A DNA stretch of 64,000 bases, taken from NCBI RefSeq assembly GCF_001701025.1, contig NZ_CP016793.1, positions 1-64,000 of the forward strand. Direction: 5' to 3'. The stretch is from Lentzea guizhouensis. GTDB taxonomy: Bacteria > Actinomycetota > Actinomycetes > Mycobacteriales > Pseudonocardiaceae. A program made the position numbers and the translations under genes. Numbering within the stretch: position 1 is the stretch's first letter; every line of letters starts with the position of its first letter. Shown here one piece after another: positions 2,858-64,000 of this stretch. The notes under the pieces were generated by a model that had not been told where the DNA came from, did not search any database, and was given only the letters and a program-made list of their open reading frames with translations.

Positions 2858-3319
2858 TCACCGCACCCGTCGGTGCGATGAGGCGATGACCACCGCGGCG
2901 GCGACGGTCACCAGGTTCTTCAAGATGTACTGACCCTCGAACGACGCCCGCATCGGACCGGTCCACATCTCGGCGGGGAAGAGCACCAGCGGTGTCGACA
3001 CCACCACGACGTGACCGACGAGCAGGGCCGCGCTCACCAGTGGAACGCGGAAGCTCAGCAGGACCAGCGCGACCGCGATTTCCGAGATCGCTGCCACCAC
3101 TCGCGCGAATTCCCCGTGGATGATCCCGAACGTCAGCGCGGAAACCGTGCGTTCGACGAGATCCTGGGCAGGGCTGCCACCGGGAAAGAGTTTCAGCACG
3201 CCGAACCAGAGGTACAAGACCCCCAGTCCGATGCGCAGCAGCGGAATTCCCGACTCACCCGCGAACCGGGTGAACCTCTCCTCCGCGCTGAGCCGGCGTG
3301 ACATTGCTGGACGCACCAT
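2858..3319 (-). CDS. DoxX family membrane protein
   Basis: 153-aa protein with four predicted membrane segments, starting around LLRIGLGVLYLWFGVLKLFPG, the conserved N-terminal signature of the DoxX family. Members sit in the cytoplasmic membrane and are linked to redox or oxidative-stress functions; the biochemical role is poorly known. ATG at 3319 is supported by AGGAGAGGGAG upstream. The gene lies 58 bases behind the heme peroxidase gene on the same strand and is probably cotranscribed, with the intervening hairpin (3331-3364) able to modulate it. Confidence 0.8.
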   Translation of the reverse strand: MVRPAMSRRLSAEERFTRFAGESGIPLLRIGLGVLYLWFGVLKLFPGGSPAQDLVERTVSALTFGIIHGEFARVVAAISEIAVALVLLSFRVPLVSAALLVGHVVVVSTPLVLFPAEMWTGPMRASFEGQYILKNLVTVAAAVVIASSHRRVR

Positions 3320-12779: not shown

Positions 12780-12849
12780 CGCTCTCTCCCCTTTCCGCGA
12801 AACCTCTCAACCCCCATGACGCCCCGGAGATCAACTGGTTGCCTCGCGG

Positions 12850-58686: not shown

Positions 58687-61600
58687 GTGACCACCACCGC
58701 CGCTGACCTGCTCACCGCGATCGACCCGCTGCCCGCACCCGCGCGGCAACGCCACATCGCCACCACCGCACGCGCGCTCGCCGGCACGCCGGAGCTCGAC
58801 GCGGTGCTGGCCGACCTGGCCGGGCGTGCCGTGTTCGAGCGGCGGCTCGCGGTGCAGATGGCGGCGATCGCGGAGCACCGCGACCACGTGCGGCGCGAGC
58901 TCGGCGCGCGGGAGACGTCCGTGCTGTGGAGTGCTCTGCGCGCGGCGGTGCGGCTGGGGCTGCCGGCCGAGGCGTTCCTGGAACGGTTGCCGGACATGGC
59001 TGTCGCGACACGCCGGCGGCTCTACCAGCTGGTGCGCGGGCAGCAGGCGACGGAGCTCGCGGACGCGCTGCTGCCGTTCGTGCGGGAGCGGTACGGCGAC
59101 GACGAGGCCGCGGGGCTGCTGTCGGTGTGCTCGGCGCCGCCGTTGCGGGAGCTGGAGCACGCGGCCGCGAACTGGTCGGCGATCGGCAAGCGGCACCCGG
59201 CGGCGTTGCTGGACCTGGTCGAGGCGGAGCTCGACGCCGCGCCGACGCAGGAGTGGAAGACCATCTGGTCGTGGCGCGCGGACGGCGTGCGCAGCGCGTC
59301 GGCGCACCTGCCGGAACGGGTGCTGGACCTGTTCGAACGGGTGCTGCCGCACGTGTGGTCGGTGCACGTGCCGCCGTGGCTGGCGCGGGTCGCACCGGAG
59401 CGGGTGGCGCGGATCCTGGCGCAGGGCAAGGCACACCAGCCGGACAGCCGGGCGTTCTGGAGCCGGCTCGGCGGTGTCGACGAGGCGGCGCTGGTCGCGG
59501 TGGCGCGCAGGCTCACCACCGCGCGGCTGCGGCACTTCCTGCACTCGCTGCCACCGTCGCGCCGGGCCGCCGTCTACCGCGGAGCCACCGGCGAACAGCC
59601 GGACGTGCCGATCGAGGTCCTCGACGAGCTGCCCACGGCCGACCGGGCGGTGCAAGCACGGCGGCTGCTGGGTCTGCGGCGCGTCGCGGACTCCCCTTCC
59701 CAGCGGCTGGCGGTGACCGCGCGGCTGTCCTGGGACGAGGCGGGGCCGGTGTTGCTGGAGGCGACGAAGCGGGCCACGGCGGAGGAACGCGCCGAGGCGT
59801 ACCCGCTCTACCTCCGCGCGGCCGCGGCGAGCAGGGACCCCGAGGTGTTCGCGGCGGTCCTCGCCACGCTGACGCGGCTGCCGAACGAGCAGGACCCCGT
59901 GCGCGCCACGGCACTCACGGCGCTGGCGAAGGTGCCGGCGTGGCTGTTCCGCGCGTCCGAGGCGCCGTTGCTGACCAAGCTGATGCTCGACGCCACCCAA
60001 GCCCGCGACAGCTCGTACAGCACGTGGAGCGCGGTGCGGGAGCTGGCGGGCACGCTCATCCGGCAGGGCGCCGTGACCGGGGACGCACGGCTGGTGGAGG
60101 CCGGCCTCGACGGGATGGGACGGCTGGGCGAGCAGCACCGCCACGTCAGCCTGCACGGGCTGTACCGGTCGCTGCCGCGGGGTGCCGAACAGCAGGTGCT
60201 GGCGGTCCTGATGCCGCGGATCACCGCTGACGCGCGCCGTGACGAGTACTCGATGGCACTCGCGCTGGCCGTCGGACTGGGCCGGCGGGCGTGGGACCTG
60301 GCCGAGCTGCAGGACGTCATCGGACAGGCGCGGTTCGCGGCGCAGGAGACCGTTGCGCGGCGGGCGATCGGGCTGTGGCTGGCCCCGGTGAGGACGCGGG
60401 ACTCCCGCGTCGAGGCGGTGTTGTTCGACGACATCTCGGCGATCACGCTCCACGAGGTGCAGCAAGCGGTGTCGACGCGGCGCACCGACCTGCTCGACCT
60501 GGTGACCGGGCAGTCCGTGCGGGGCCGGTTCTGGGTCACCAGCGTGAGCTTCGTACCGTTCTACGACCGCTGCTTCCACCTGTGGATGCCCCGGCAGATC
60601 ACGGCGTACGCGGCTGAGCTGGAGGTGATCGCGCGGTCCGACAACGCGCTCGGCACCAGGGTGAACGCGGTTCTGCGGCTGGGCGGCGTGCCGGGTACGA
60701 CCGCGGTGTTGCGCACGTTCCTGCACGACGGGGAAGTCGCGCTGGCGGAGGCCGCGATGGGCGCGTTGGCGTGGACCGACGAGCCGGGTGACGTGCTGCC
60801 GGAACTGTTGGCGTTCGCCGATACCGACCGTGCGCGCGTTGCGGTGTATGCCGCGACCCGGTGCGCGCGTTTCACCTCGCCGTCGAAGCTTTCCGCTTTG
60901 CTCGCACCGGTGTTGCGCGGCAAGAAGGTGACGTCGCGCAAGGAGGCCGTGCGGTTGCTCGCCGAACACCAGGCGCCGGGTGCGCCGGCCGAGCTCACCG
61001 CGATCTGGCCGGACACCCACCGCGACGTCAAGCGGGCGATCGTGTCGGCGTGCCGGTGGTTCCTCGACGAGGAGACCGCCTGGGACCTGCTGTCCGCGGC
61101 GGCCGGGGGTGAGCAGGCCGTGGCGCTCTCCGTGCTGGAGCTGCCCCCGCAGTTCATCGCGGCACGGCACCGCCACCGGTACGCGGCACTGGTGCGCACC
61201 GTCGCCGTGCGCCGGGAACCCGGCATCGCCGAGCCCGCGCTGTCCCGGTTGCCGCTGTGGTCGCGGTGGGACGAAGGCGGTACGGACCTGCTCGCCGACC
61301 TCACCGCGGACCTGGCGAACACGGCGACCTGGCAGGCAGCCCTCGGCGCGTTGATCTCCAGCTGCGCCTCGGACCTGACGCCGCTGCGGTCCGTCGTGAC
61401 GCGCCTGCTGTCCACTGTGGATGCCTTCGACGCCGTACCCGACCGCGACCTGCCCGCCCGGCAACGGATCCGCAAGGTCGTCGAACTGCTCGCCGACGAC
61501 CGCACCTCCGCGGCACACCGGGCGTTCGAACGGCAGCTGGCTGCCGACCTCGCCGCGGAGATGCCACGCGAGGCGATCAAGCTCGCGGCCGGCGCCGTCG

Positions 61601-61920
61601 AGTGGCAGCACGCCGACGTCCTCGACCAGGTGCTGTTCGCGGCCTCGCTGGGCACCCGCCCGGTGCTCGCACTGGAGGTGCGCACGGCGTTGTCGCGCTG
61701 GCTGCGCCACGGCCTCGCCGGGATCGCCATCGACGACGTGCGCCGCCTGGCCACCGACGTGGTCATCCCCGCCCCGCTGGTGGCCCTCGGCTTCGCCGCG
61801 GTGGCCGGCGAGGCGGAGGGCTGGCCGGAGTTCTGGCTCGCGATCGTGCGCCAGGTCCGTGCTCACCCCGACCCCGACGTGCGTGAGGCGGCTCTCGCGG
61901 TCATGACCGCACCCGAGTAG
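58687..61920 (+). CDS. Large HEAT-like repeat protein
   Basis: 1077-aa soluble protein, almost entirely alpha-helical, rich in Arg, Ala and Leu, with repeating helical pairs such as ARLRHFLHSLPPSRRAAVY, RVNAVLRLGGVPGTTAVLRT and LAEAAMGALAWTDEPGDVLP. It looks like a solenoid of HEAT/ARM-type repeats; I see no catalytic motif, signal peptide or membrane segment. The probable role is a scaffold or binding surface. GTG at 58687 lacks a strong ribosome-binding site. It stands alone between divergent and convergent neighbours. The 58454-58686 leader region has no other gene. Confidence 0.7.
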   Translation: MTTTAADLLTAIDPLPAPARQRHIATTARALAGTPELDAVLADLAGRAVFERRLAVQMAAIAEHRDHVRRELGARETSVLWSALRAAVRLGLPAEAFLERLPDMAVATRRRLYQLVRGQQATELADALLPFVRERYGDDEAAGLLSVCSAPPLRELEHAAANWSAIGKRHPAALLDLVEAELDAAPTQEWKTIWSWRADGVRSASAHLPERVLDLFERVLPHVWSVHVPPWLARVAPERVARILAQGKAHQPDSRAFWSRLGGVDEAALVAVARRLTTARLRHFLHSLPPSRRAAVYRGATGEQPDVPIEVLDELPTADRAVQARRLLGLRRVADSPSQRLAVTARLSWDEAGPVLLEATKRATAEERAEAYPLYLRAAAASRDPEVFAAVLATLTRLPNEQDPVRATALTALAKVPAWLFRASEAPLLTKLMLDATQARDSSYSTWSAVRELAGTLIRQGAVTGDARLVEAGLDGMGRLGEQHRHVSLHGLYRSLPRGAEQQVLAVLMPRITADARRDEYSMALALAVGLGRRAWDLAELQDVIGQARFAAQETVARRAIGLWLAPVRTRDSRVEAVLFDDISAITLHEVQQAVSTRRTDLLDLVTGQSVRGRFWVTSVSFVPFYDRCFHLWMPRQITAYAAELEVIARSDNALGTRVNAVLRLGGVPGTTAVLRTFLHDGEVALAEAAMGALAWTDEPGDVLPELLAFADTDRARVAVYAATRCARFTSPSKLSALLAPVLRGKKVTSRKEAVRLLAEHQAPGAPAELTAIWPDTHRDVKRAIVSACRWFLDEETAWDLLSAAAGGEQAVALSVLELPPQFIAARHRHRYAALVRTVAVRREPGIAEPALSRLPLWSRWDEGGTDLLADLTADLANTATWQAALGALISSCASDLTPLRSVVTRLLSTVDAFDAVPDRDLPARQRIRKVVELLADDRTSAAHRAFERQLAADLAAEMPREAIKLAAGAVEWQHADVLDQVLFAASLGTRPVLALEVRTALSRWLRHGLAGIAIDDVRRLATDVVIPAPLVALGFAAVAGEAEGWPEFWLAIVRQVRAHPDPDVREAALAVMTAPE

Positions 61921-61984: not shown

Positions 61985-62305
61985 TCACAGCCGCACCAGG
62001 TGCGACTGCCGCACCGGCTCGCGGTCCCCCTCCGGCAACTCCTCGGGCAGCCACGCCCGTAAAGCACGCCCGAACATCAGCAACGTCCGCCAGTTGTCCC
62101 ACAACGCGAGCAGAACCCCGGCCAGCACCACGGACGCCGCGACGGCGAGCACGCCGTCGTCCTTGAGCAGCACCACGACCGCGACCACGGCCCACAGCTC
62201 CACGACCGTGTACACGATCAGGAGCAGCACCTGCTCCGTGTGCTTGCGCCGGGCGCGCAGCACCTGCGTGCGGGAGTCGGGATCGGGCAGTGACTGGCGC
62301 TTCAT
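61985..62305 (-). CDS. Small membrane protein with two helices
   Basis: 106 aa: hydrophilic N-terminus (KRQSLPDPDSRTQVLRARRK), two membrane helices (VLLLIVYTVVELWAVVAVVVLL and VLAVAASVVLAGVLLALW) and a cytoplasmic tail (LPEELPEGDREPVRQ). There is no recognised family. ATG at 62305 follows AGGAG (GTTCAGGAGCCGTC). The Crp/Fnr gene lies 65 bases upstream on the same strand, so the two may share a transcript. Confidence 0.65.
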   Translation of the reverse strand: MKRQSLPDPDSRTQVLRARRKHTEQVLLLIVYTVVELWAVVAVVVLLKDDGVLAVAASVVLAGVLLALWDNWRTLLMFGRALRAWLPEELPEGDREPVRQSHLVRL

Positions 62306-62370: not shown

Positions 62371-63024
62371 TCAGATGCCGCACATCGACCGCAATTCTTC
62401 CTCGCGCAGAATTTGCACGCCGTTGCGCCGGGTCCGGATGATTCCCGCCTCGCGCAGAACTTTCAAGCACCGCACGAGCGTCTCGCGGGACATTCCCACA
62501 ATGCCGGCGAGCTCACGTTGGCTGAGCGGCACCGTGGCGATCATGTCGTCCGCCTCCCGGTGCGCCAGGTTCAGCAGCACCGCACCGACCCGGTACAGCG
62601 ACGGGCCGGTGCGCAGGTCCTGCTGGTCGCTCGTGGCACGGTGCCGCGACACCACGACCCGCAGCAGCGCCCACGCGACGGCAGGCCGCGCATGACACAG
62701 CTTCTCCAGCGCCTGAGCGGTGAGCACCAAGCCGCACACGCGATCCACGGCCACGAGCGAGGCGGTGCGACATCCGCCGTCCACGGCGGAGAGCTCGCCT
62801 ATGATCTCGCCAGGCCCGCGGACGGCGAGCACGTTCTCCTCGCCCGTGGCGGTGAACCGGCTCACCTTGACTCGGCCGTGAGAGACGACCAACACGTTGC
62901 GCGACGGATCTCCCTGGTGGCAGATCACCGATCCGGGCGCATATTCAACTCTTGTCGCCGCGCTCCGCAACGCTGTGCGATCGGCTACGGTGAGCATGCC
63001 CGAGAAAGATCGGTCAATCCCCAT
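62371..63024 (-). CDS. Crp/Fnr family transcriptional regulator
   Basis: 217-aa regulator. The cyclic-nucleotide-binding barrel (about 15-125) includes EYAPGSVICHQGDPSRNVL and a phosphate-binding-cassette-like stretch GEIIGELSAVDGG with R-T-A, so nucleotide binding is possible. The C-terminal winged helix is LSQRELAGIVGMSRETLVRCL, LREAGII. ATG at 63024 is preferred; the frame opens at 63054. It is divergent from a class III nucleotide cyclase gene with a 16-bp dyad between, suggesting that regulator and cyclase form one signalling unit. Confidence 0.87.
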   Translation of the reverse strand: MGIDRSFSGMLTVADRTALRSAATRVEYAPGSVICHQGDPSRNVLVVSHGRVKVSRFTATGEENVLAVRGPGEIIGELSAVDGGCRTASLVAVDRVCGLVLTAQALEKLCHARPAVAWALLRVVVSRHRATSDQQDLRTGPSLYRVGAVLLNLAHREADDMIATVPLSQRELAGIVGMSRETLVRCLKVLREAGIIRTRRNGVQILREEELRSMCGI

Positions 63025-63064
63025 AGTTTCATAGTTCCGGCAACTGCACGTCATACCATTGACC

Positions 63065-63080
63065 CGATTGATCTAAATCG
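63065..63080. promoter_or_regulatory. Crp/Fnr-type dyad
   Basis: CGATT-GATCTA-AATCG is a perfect 5-6-5 inverted repeat, the geometry of Crp/Fnr sites, in the AT-rich divergent region between the Crp/Fnr gene and the cyclase gene. It is the likely binding site of that regulator. Confidence 0.5.
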
Positions 63081-63151
63081 AAGCCGATATGGCGAAGTTT
63101 GCTCGTCACGTCCGGATAATGGGCGGGCTGCCTATCCGGTTGGGAGCCCCC

Positions 63152-64000
63152 GTGGAACAGACACCACGCGCCGAGCCACGGGCGGTCCTGGCCGTGGACG
63201 TGGAGAAGTTCAGCGACCCGAGTCGGACGAACCACCACAAGAGCGTCGTGCAGGACGGGTTGTACGAAGCGCTGCACGCCGCGTTCCACGAGAGCAACAT
63301 CGCCGAGGAGAGCTGGTACGTCGAGGACAGGGGCGACGGCGCGCTGTTCCTGTTCACGCCGGAAGTGCGCAAGCAGGTGCTGACCGACTCCCTCCTACGG
63401 CGGATGGGTGCGAACCTGCTGCGCTACAACGCCACCGTCACGCCCGAAGCCCGCATCAGGCTGCGGATCGCGCTGCACTTCGGCGAGGTCGTGATCAACG
63501 ACAAGGGTGTGGTCGGCGACTGCGTGAACCACACCTTCCGGTTGCTCGACGCCCCTCCGCTCAAGACGGCGCTGGCCGGGTCGACCAGCCTGCTCGCGGT
63601 GGTCGTGTCCGAGGAGTTCTACCGGCACGTGCTGCGGCACGACCCGGCGGCCGAACCGCAGGCGTACAGGCAGATCGAGGTCGTGGTGAAGGAAACGACG
63701 GCCGCGGCGTGGATGCGGCTGTCACCGGAGTCGATGCACGGGACGCCGCCCGCGGCAGCCACTCCCCCGCCGCCGGTGGAGACCACCGAGCACGCCGTCG
63801 TGAGCAGCGGCGAGTCGCTCGTCCTGCTCGCCGACATGATCGCCAGGACGACGCTGCTGGCGAGCCAGGACGACCGGCGGCTGTGCCTCGACCTGCTGAG
63901 CATCTCGCTGAAGCCGCGACTGCAGGTCGTCGAGTTCACCGACGCCCGGCGGCACGTGTTCGCGATCGTGCTCGCCTGCGGACGTCGTCCCGACGGCATC
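63152..64000 (+). CDS. Class III nucleotide cyclase fused to EAD2-like domain (3' truncated)
   Basis: 283 codons to the window edge. GTG at 63152 follows GGGAG. The cyclase domain (8-190) has the two metal aspartates in LAVDVEKF (Asp16) and DRGDGALFLF (Asp62), the strand RLRIALHFGEVV and the transition-state pair N-HTF-R (Asn126/Arg130) in DCVNHTFRLLD, so it may be active. After a proline-rich linker (HGTPPAAATPPPPVETTE) comes SLVLLADMIARTTLLASQ, then DDRRLCLDLLS and HVFAIVLACGRRPDG, resembling effector-associated domain EAD2 of actinobacterial NTP-dependent conflict systems. It is divergent from a Crp/Fnr regulator. The rest of the protein lies outside the window. Confidence 0.78.
   Translation, partial: MEQTPRAEPRAVLAVDVEKFSDPSRTNHHKSVVQDGLYEALHAAFHESNIAEESWYVEDRGDGALFLFTPEVRKQVLTDSLLRRMGANLLRYNATVTPEARIRLRIALHFGEVVINDKGVVGDCVNHTFRLLDAPPLKTALAGSTSLLAVVVSEEFYRHVLRHDPAAEPQAYRQIEVVVKETTAAAWMRLSPESMHGTPPAAATPPPPVETTEHAVVSSGESLVLLADMIARTTLLASQDDRRLCLDLLSISLKPRLQVVEFTDARRHVFAIVLACGRRPDGI

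Follow-up and report, generated by a model that had tools for sequence, protein, structure and literature searches.

A cyclase–EAD2–VMAP gene beside a divergent Crp/Fnr regulator at the 5' end of a predicted conflict cassette in Lentzea guizhouensis

Layout of the locus

The window, by which we mean the whole 64,000-nucleotide stretch analysed (G000:C1:1-64000), ends inside a reading frame that goes on in the same contig, and the complete gene encodes a protein with the domain order class III cyclase–EAD2–VMAP-M0–VMAP-C. Almost certainly this gene opens, at the 5' end, a VMAP ternary conflict cassette of five genes and of the actinobacterial kind, which is adjoined by the genes for a Crp and for a small predicted membrane protein. 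The features, in order, are:

61985..62305, minus strand: predicted membrane protein of 106 aa (hydrophobic stretches judged by eye)
62371..63054, minus strand: Crp/Fnr regulator gene (cNMP_binding and HTH_Crp_2)
63060-63076 (feature 63060..63081), no strand: conserved intergenic block TGACCCGATTGATCTAA, overlapping an FNR/CRP-like box
63068-63081, no strand: FNR/CRP-like box TTGAT-CTAA-ATCGA, overlapping the conserved block
63152..64000, plus strand: 5' part of the cyclase-EAD2-VMAP gene (whole gene G000:C1:63152-65266, GTG start)
63152..63724, plus strand: class III nucleotide cyclase domain (residues 22-212 of the ATG-63089 frame)
63725..63832, plus strand: proline-rich linker (model confidence low)
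63833..64000 in the window and on to 64072, plus strand: EAD2 (PF19956), the sole EAD2 found in the genome
G000:C1:65263-66300, plus strand: MoxR-like AAA+ ATPase gene (AAA_5 5.6e-8; bpMoxR model under its cut-off)
66297-70553, plus strand: SAV_2336(vWA)-NB-ARC-TPR gene, 1418 aa (SAV_2336_NTERM 395 bits; FxSxx_TPR 905 bits)
70558-72255, minus strand, convergent: aKG-HExxH enzyme, 565 aa (mod_HExxH 153 bits)
72249-72485, minus strand: precursor peptide gene, 78 aa, at the far end of the cassette

Profile matches in the cyclase-VMAP protein had E-values of 2.7e-48 for VMAP-C (PF20028), 1.7e-25 for VMAP-M0 (PF19916) and 4.6e-17 for EAD2; numbered from ATG 63089, as are all residues of this protein below, the Pfam matches place EAD2 at residues 249-328, VMAP-M0 at 337-439 and VMAP-C at 469-711. 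The GTG at 63152 has GGGAG upstream of it, kept in 6/6 loci (own counted), and the alternative longer frame from ATG 63089 adds a tail predicted with a pLDDT <50 over residues 1-19. The preliminary description of this DNA had proposed a conflict-system context, which was borne out, as VMAP, MoxR-like and SAV_2336-NB-ARC-TPR parts follow at once past 64000. A VMAP-C and VMAP-M region with an adjacent MoxR AAA+ gene, as VMAP-ternary systems have it, is present at the locus, and the position of the MoxR gene adjoining the VMAP gene is kept in relatives. In the 66297-70553 protein the NB-ARC match falls just under its cut-off, and no Pfam vWA model matched at E<=0.1; its vWA label, given by position, is therefore putative. 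An Rfam search of L001 (1-13500) returned no match.

On the regulator side, the true Crp start is probably ATG 63024, where the conserved stretch MGIDRSF begins. The 106-aa membrane-protein family was called beside the Crp gene in 16/17 Crp loci and has a weak PspM match under the cut-off. Left of the locus lies a 1077-aa protein (58687-61920) with weak HEAT-repeat matches only. By the right edge of the cassette site, outside the window, lies a P450 like pentalenolactone synthase (G000:C1:73513-74727; match under the cut-off), whose family is also present at the cassette-minus sites L053 and L072.

The regulator, the intergenic block and the cassette as a unit

Close divergent Crp genes adjoin 6/6 window-type cassettes (window counted) and six cassettes of a second type in the genus. 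The earlier expectation that the Crp/cyclase pair would be conserved in related genomes was thereby upheld, with a close Crp divergent from the cyclase at 12 of the 30 loci compared. Crp identity was 69-77% in the first group (L003, the window's own, and L004-L008) and 65-74% in the second (L017, L018, L020, L022, L030 and L031). Three further loci (L023-L025) have a stand-alone cyclase and two distant Crp-like genes (31-35%) on the same strand, and no Crp was found at the remaining 15/30. A further 14 loci of the genus that were compared likewise show none; at several of these the cyclase is missing or stands alone. The arrangement of a stand-alone cyclase with two tandem Crp-like genes occurs in G012, G014 and G015, genomes without the window-type Crp; at the one of the three loci covered by the Pfam check (L071:7780-10070, a wider stretch of L023), Pfam confirmed the two tandem genes upstream of the cyclase, which itself had no Pfam match.

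The two cassette types beside the same Crp are non-sister. Compared with the window, second-type cyclases are 38-42% identical and VMAP parts 27-29%, and in the MoxR tree (36/39 rows; 3 short rows dropped) second-type cassettes join a locus from a different genus (100/98) and stand separate from the window's type. The Crp tree puts the second-type rows together with one orphan (99/98) and gives no clear grouping of first-type rows and the remaining orphans. Independent Crp-cassette pairings number two at most.

The genus listing of Crp genes gave 18 matches, of which 17 were used and a 39% match in G015 was dropped. Five of the 17 had no adjoining cassette in the stretch fetched (G001, G010, G011, the second G007 copy and a 58% G019 copy). 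A Crp of at least 65% identity was present in 15/24 genus genomes; the same 15 carry one-frame cyclase and VMAP matches, whereas 0 of the other 9 has such a frame at E<=1e-10 (Fisher 8e-7, uncorrected for kinship). G008 has stop codons within the second-type copy next to its Crp, and the one-frame copy lies elsewhere. Family-wide, Crps at E<=1e-50 were found in 17/297 genomes (9 candidates scored per genome), 16 of them of the genus and one at 50% identity, and the 13 closest Crp loci among the matches listed were from Lentzea, save one Nocardia sp. NRRL S-836 record. No Crp was found in 20 loci of other genera with 1.5-kb flanks, in some of which the cyclase was separate and nearer the edge, and a Crp-cassette rule reaching beyond the genus was therefore not upheld in these relatives' loci. 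In the stretches fetched around further cassettes, one Crp-like gene lies near a foreign cassette (L186); it is only 30% identical and sits at the opposite end.

The phosphate-binding cassette (G-E and R) is kept in 17/17 Crps; the base-contact pair is T-S in 2/17 and varies in the others. A cAMP specificity read from the window's T-S alone was withdrawn, since 15/17 Crps differ. Ser/Thr has been associated with cAMP and Glu with a cGMP receptor (PMC11224242), and a cGMP-reading Crp is therefore not predicted by the residues.

Between the two genes, the 12-base block CGATYGATCTAA had one match in each of 14/24 genomes, 13/14 of them at a Crp gene, against 1 match in 24 genomes for the backwards control pattern. 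The sole genus copy away from a Crp (G015:C2:573938) falls between genes as called. In its wider form, TGNCCCGATYGATCTAA, the block hardly varies across the 15/17 loci that could be aligned, the alignment leaving out L055 and L057, which had no match; three orphan Crp loci (L053, L054 and L072) are among the 15, so the block goes with the Crp. The site at 63060..63081 may act as operator or promoter and may control the cassette. The 5-6-5 dyad described earlier lies at 63065-63080; as a conserved unit a strict 5-6-5 or 5-4-5 dyad was rejected, with four aligned loci having a shorter spacer and two lacking the right half-site. Because spacer and half-site vary, the block and not the symmetry is taken as the conserved unit.

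Cassette-minus relatives delimit the cassette. Aligned to the window genome, L053 (G001) breaks off at L001:3079 and picks up again at 12798, with 60 bases separating the two matches, and L072 (G011) breaks off at 3125 and picks up again at 12790. A piece of ~9.7 kb, which begins a little beyond the block and ends a little beyond the precursor gene, is therefore present or absent as a whole. Both of these sites keep the Crp and the block, and because they persist without a local cassette, the block does not prove that the cassette is under its control. G001 and G010 each carry a cassette on a different contig, where the 19 kb fetched contain no Crp; the contig with the G011 cassette is only 8.5 kb long. 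In L. californiensis (L055 versus L060) the missing piece includes the block, and the flanks at the gap are 93% and 87% identical. The second Crp copy of this species is frameshifted there (L055:9802-10400), where cassette and block are missing, a single case.

That the Crp reads the signal of this cyclase, as the preliminary description had put forward as possible, is a tentative assignment that we put somewhat below an even chance: the conserved pair keeps it plausible, but the predicted base preferences of cyclase and Crp do not match cleanly, and N147 is lost in 3/6 second-type cyclases that adjoin a Crp. The imperfect match of base preferences, the persistence of Crp and block without a cassette and the lack of a Crp in the 20 other-genus loci (1.5-kb flanks) make its further claim of a self-contained circuit too strong. 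A competing explanation, which we hold to have a substantial though less than even probability, is that the cyclase signal is read within the VMAP cassette or by other cNMP receptors, the Crp being a resident regulator whose upstream region has a tolerated insertion site next to it. The two cassette-minus sites that keep Crp and block, the same-genus cassettes without a Crp in their fetched flanks and the Crp-less loci of other genera are all consistent with a resident Crp; it sits less well with two non-sister cassette types beside the same Crp in the same divergent layout, with the co-occurrence of close Crps and one-frame cyclase-VMAP genes (15 versus 0/9, also where non-adjacent) and with the one frameshifted L. 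californiensis Crp.

The peptide, the cyclase and the EAD2 series

The precursor C-terminus PLI[TK]C is kept in 19/19 homologues (own copy counted), as is the core Cys; ARM occurs in 18/19 and SRM in one. Differences among six loci by codon position (213, 210 and 344) are as in a translated gene. Four C-terminal precursor types have been distinguished, FxSxx, RxD, acidic and FtsH-associated (Kaur et al. 2020, PMC7159879). The type-defining C-terminus of FxSxx, RxD or acidic precursors is absent from the window-type precursor, for which the FxSxx model scored 14.9 bits against a cut-off of 28, in the leader part; second-type peptides at the three loci where the frame was seen (L063, L065 and L066) end in ERID, the RxD end. 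The HExxH protein (motif HEVQH) matches the TIGR04267 aKG-HExxH peptide beta-hydroxylase at 153 bits versus a cut-off of 40, and is probably the one called a metallopeptidase by Kaur et al. (PMC7159879). Oxidative backbone cleavage at a C-terminal ARMD is reported for two aKG-HExxH enzymes (PMC12636437); the precursor ARM as a cleavage site is a lead only, as a match of three letters may be chance and no ARM was seen in the second-type peptides. With its terminal Cys, the precursor offers a concrete new target for RiPP work.

These two genes raise the alternative that the locus is a developmental or peptide-signalling module instead of a defence system, that is, a cNMP-controlled RiPP pathway with the oxidised peptide as its product. 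We regard this as rather unlikely. Precursor and enzyme do belong to the unit and the PLI[TK]C end is invariant in pattern, no experimental phenotype of a VMAP system was found in the mainly open literature searched, and the authors of PMC10907252 call their own immunity proposal yet to be tested; against it, cassette presence/absence and divergence fit a conflict role, and protection from phages is noted for bacterial STAND proteins that sense through TPRs (PMC10907252).

The cyclase-EAD2-VMAP protein bears out the earlier domain calls. Residues 22-212 have the class III cyclase fold with the two metal aspartates and the Arg/Asn pair (D37, D83, N147 and R151), the stretch after them is proline-rich as described, and the EAD2-like tail matches EAD2 at 62.5 bits versus a curated cut-off of 23.8. 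The preliminary description was to fall if the tail matched no EAD or if partner genes and a conserved pair were missing, and neither was the case. The Pfam cyclase model PF00211 has no match anywhere in the genome; the evidence for a cyclase therefore comes from profile and structure comparisons. The base-contact positions E79/G140/F150 have a GTP-type look, by which the product may be cGMP, or both cGMP and cAMP; the Ma1120 EGY mutant uses ATP and GTP equally (PMC4215837). Judged from residues, base specificity is in tension, with a GTP-type cyclase and a Crp pocket that appears cAMP-like here and variable in relatives. The cyclase family is joined to a cNMP-binding domain (PF00027) in 6/91 homologues listed, which supports a cNMP as the currency; precomputed Pfam labels also place the family with AAA_16, XRE HTH, ABC, NB-ARC and ricin-type domains (P0003, P0015, P0019, P0021, P0028 and P0031).

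From its residues, the cyclase domain is probably active. That it is instead weak or dead and serves as a nucleotide-binding or decoy domain is improbable. In favour of this reading, the family does not conserve its transition-state Asn (30/70; absent from 8/27 loci), and Kaur et al. describe cyclases on the vWA component that are inactive (PMC7159879). Against it, all four residues are kept in the window protein and in each of the 5 orthologues, Ma1120, with Ala in place of the Asn, is active (PMC4215837), and Kaur et al. set the inactive vWA versions against VMAP-fused ones.

Matching EADs had been expected to bring separate partners together. One EAD2 was found in the window genome, with 150/177 first-look candidates scored; within that scope neither a second copy, as EAD coupling needs, nor a separate EAD2 partner gene for the cyclase was found. 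The idea is inapplicable in this genome because there is this one EAD2 and the VMAP partner is in the same polypeptide. Across 24 genus genomes (147/177 candidates scored in each), 5/6 genomes with the window-type fusion have a single EAD2 and G016 has two; elsewhere there are four in G003, two each in G006, G007, G008, G009, G013 and G019, one in G014 and none in the remaining 10, among them the seven genomes with a second-type cassette only (G001, G002, G004, G010, G011, G022 and G023). A second EAD2 is on a cyclase protein in G003, G013 and G019, and on a protein without a cyclase match in G006, G009 and a second G003 site. Where the cyclase-EAD2 gene lies directly upstream, the order is cyclase-EAD2, EAD2-VMAP (L176, and L178, L179, L185 and L187 in other genera); at L184 it lies at the far side of the cassette. 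At L177 (G008; L177:8346-10715) a cyclase, two EAD2 matches and VMAP share one 797-aa frame, both EAD2 matches coming from the genus-wide count and the first alone from a profile of our own making, and the MoxR match is split across two frames; this tandem-EAD2 frame may represent a step between split genes and the fusion.

EAD2 thus occurs as a split pair, as a tandem-EAD2 fusion and as a single-EAD2 fusion, and there are fusions without EAD2; given these arrangements, the single EAD2 of the window is one state of a series. The series fits the homotypic-adaptor proposal of Kaur et al. (PMC7159879), in whose text on the proposal we found no mention of a tandem-EAD2 fusion, and the split, tandem and single states offer a natural test of it.

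Proposed working and comparison with known systems

Our best overall explanation, which we judge to be little short of evenly balanced, is a VMAP cassette whose cyclase signal is most likely read by the divergent Crp. An invader or damage would be sensed by VMAP-M0/VMAP-C or by the vWA-NB-ARC-TPR protein, and MoxR would pass the sensed state to the cyclase-EAD2-VMAP protein. Class III cyclases need two cyclase domains together, and self-association of EAD2 would pair them; the paired domains would make a cyclic mononucleotide (cGMP, or both cGMP and cAMP) to be read by a cNMP-binding protein, most likely the Crp, which would act at the intergenic site and reset transcription both of the cassette and of the Crp operon itself. 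Output would run through two arms, the NB-ARC-TPR protein and the small peptide in its oxidised form. Domains, gene order, conservation, the once-per-genome block and the presence or absence of the cassette as one piece are computed results, whereas enzyme activity, signal identity, EAD2 dimerisation, the operator role of the block, the Crp as receiver and the role in defence are inferences. VMAP is the sensor in one published signalling direction (Kaur et al. 2020, PMC7159879); for other VMAP loci the vWA protein has been taken as sensor and the VMAP N-terminal domain as effector (PMC10907252).

A bolder version of this explanation, which is unlikely as a whole, is that non-sister cyclase-VMAP cassettes settled twice beside the same Crp operon with its once-per-genome block between, a cyclic nucleotide resetting both; that EAD2 collapsed from a trans pair to a single cyclase-dimerising domain; and that a new RiPP type (core C...PLI[TK]C) is freed from its leader by oxidative cleavage at ARM. 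The general idea of a VMAP-borne cNMP cyclase, and of a CRP-like sensor of cNMP in the neighbourhood of related systems, had already been put forward (Kaur et al. 2020, PMC7159879). New here are the recurrent divergent Crp with its once-per-genome block, the ~9.7 kb cassette-minus relatives, the EAD2 series and the PLI[TK]C precursor. The locus is a compact test case, with signal maker, adaptor and core in one polypeptide, a candidate receiver and the block alongside, and natural cassette-minus relatives as controls; if the Crp does read the signal, a conflict system would be linked to transcription.

The best sequence matches of the window Crp were 4cyd and 3d0s, listed as Crp/Fnr regulators, which we take to be GlxR and mycobacterial CRP. 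The phosphate-binding cassette is shared with them, whereas the base-contact residues vary among the genus Crps and a once-per-genome block stands in place of a known global regulon. Six cNBD-cyclase fusions (P0041, P0048, P0066 and P0071 of Actinomadura, P0075 of Spirillospora, and P0046) join the same cyclase family to a cNMP-binding domain; unlike the window, they hold both in one chain without a VMAP match. With Cya2 and the Ma1120 EGY mutant (2w01, 5d0h; PMC4215837) the predicted enzyme shares the E-G base-contact pair and an aromatic third residue (F150 here, Tyr there) at 17-19% identity. Pycsar (PycC with PycTM/PycTIR, PMC11224242) likewise sets a class III-type cyclase beside a cyclic-nucleotide-binding protein, but here the cNBD protein carries an HTH and the cyclase is fused to EAD2-VMAP; with cNMP_binding and HTH_Crp_2 and neither TM nor TIR in the neighbour, Pycsar was ruled out. 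A PADLOC search including Pycsar gave no system match, and the Crp's best PADLOC matches (Pycsar entries) span the cNBD alone, weaker ones the HTH. The PflC/PosC aKG-HEXXH RiPP enzymes (PMC12636437) are of the same family as the predicted enzyme here, and both kinds of precursor contain ARM; theirs finishes in ARMD, whereas ARM here stands between leader and core. STAND/VMAP loci with diversified sensors (PMC10907252) likewise combine MoxR and vWA (putative here) with a VMAP protein whose N-terminus carries an effector or signal domain, with trypsin/TIR effectors and C-type lectin sensors there and a cyclase, NB-ARC-TPR and a peptide here. VMAP-type genes also occur near CRISPR loci (PMC10910872).

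The closest likeness is to VMAP ternary conflict systems (vWA-MoxR subsystem 1), predicted with cyclase and EADs included (Kaur et al. 2020, PMC7159879). In the literature found, these are known from computation, and no experimental study of one was found there (e.g. PMC7159879, PMC8195603, PMC10907252 and PMC10910872). Shared with them are VMAP-C, VMAP-M0, MoxR, a putative vWA protein with C-terminal AP-ATPase and TPR, an N-terminal cNMP cyclase on VMAP, EAD2, and an HExxH-type protein with a small peptide, and a CRP-like gene is mentioned near related peptide systems. The present locus differs in its one EAD2, inside the cyclase-VMAP fusion, in its precursor outside the FxSxx, RxD and acidic types, in its HExxH protein, now classed as a peptide beta-hydroxylase and not a peptidase, and in the recurrent divergent Crp with the once-per-genome block upstream.
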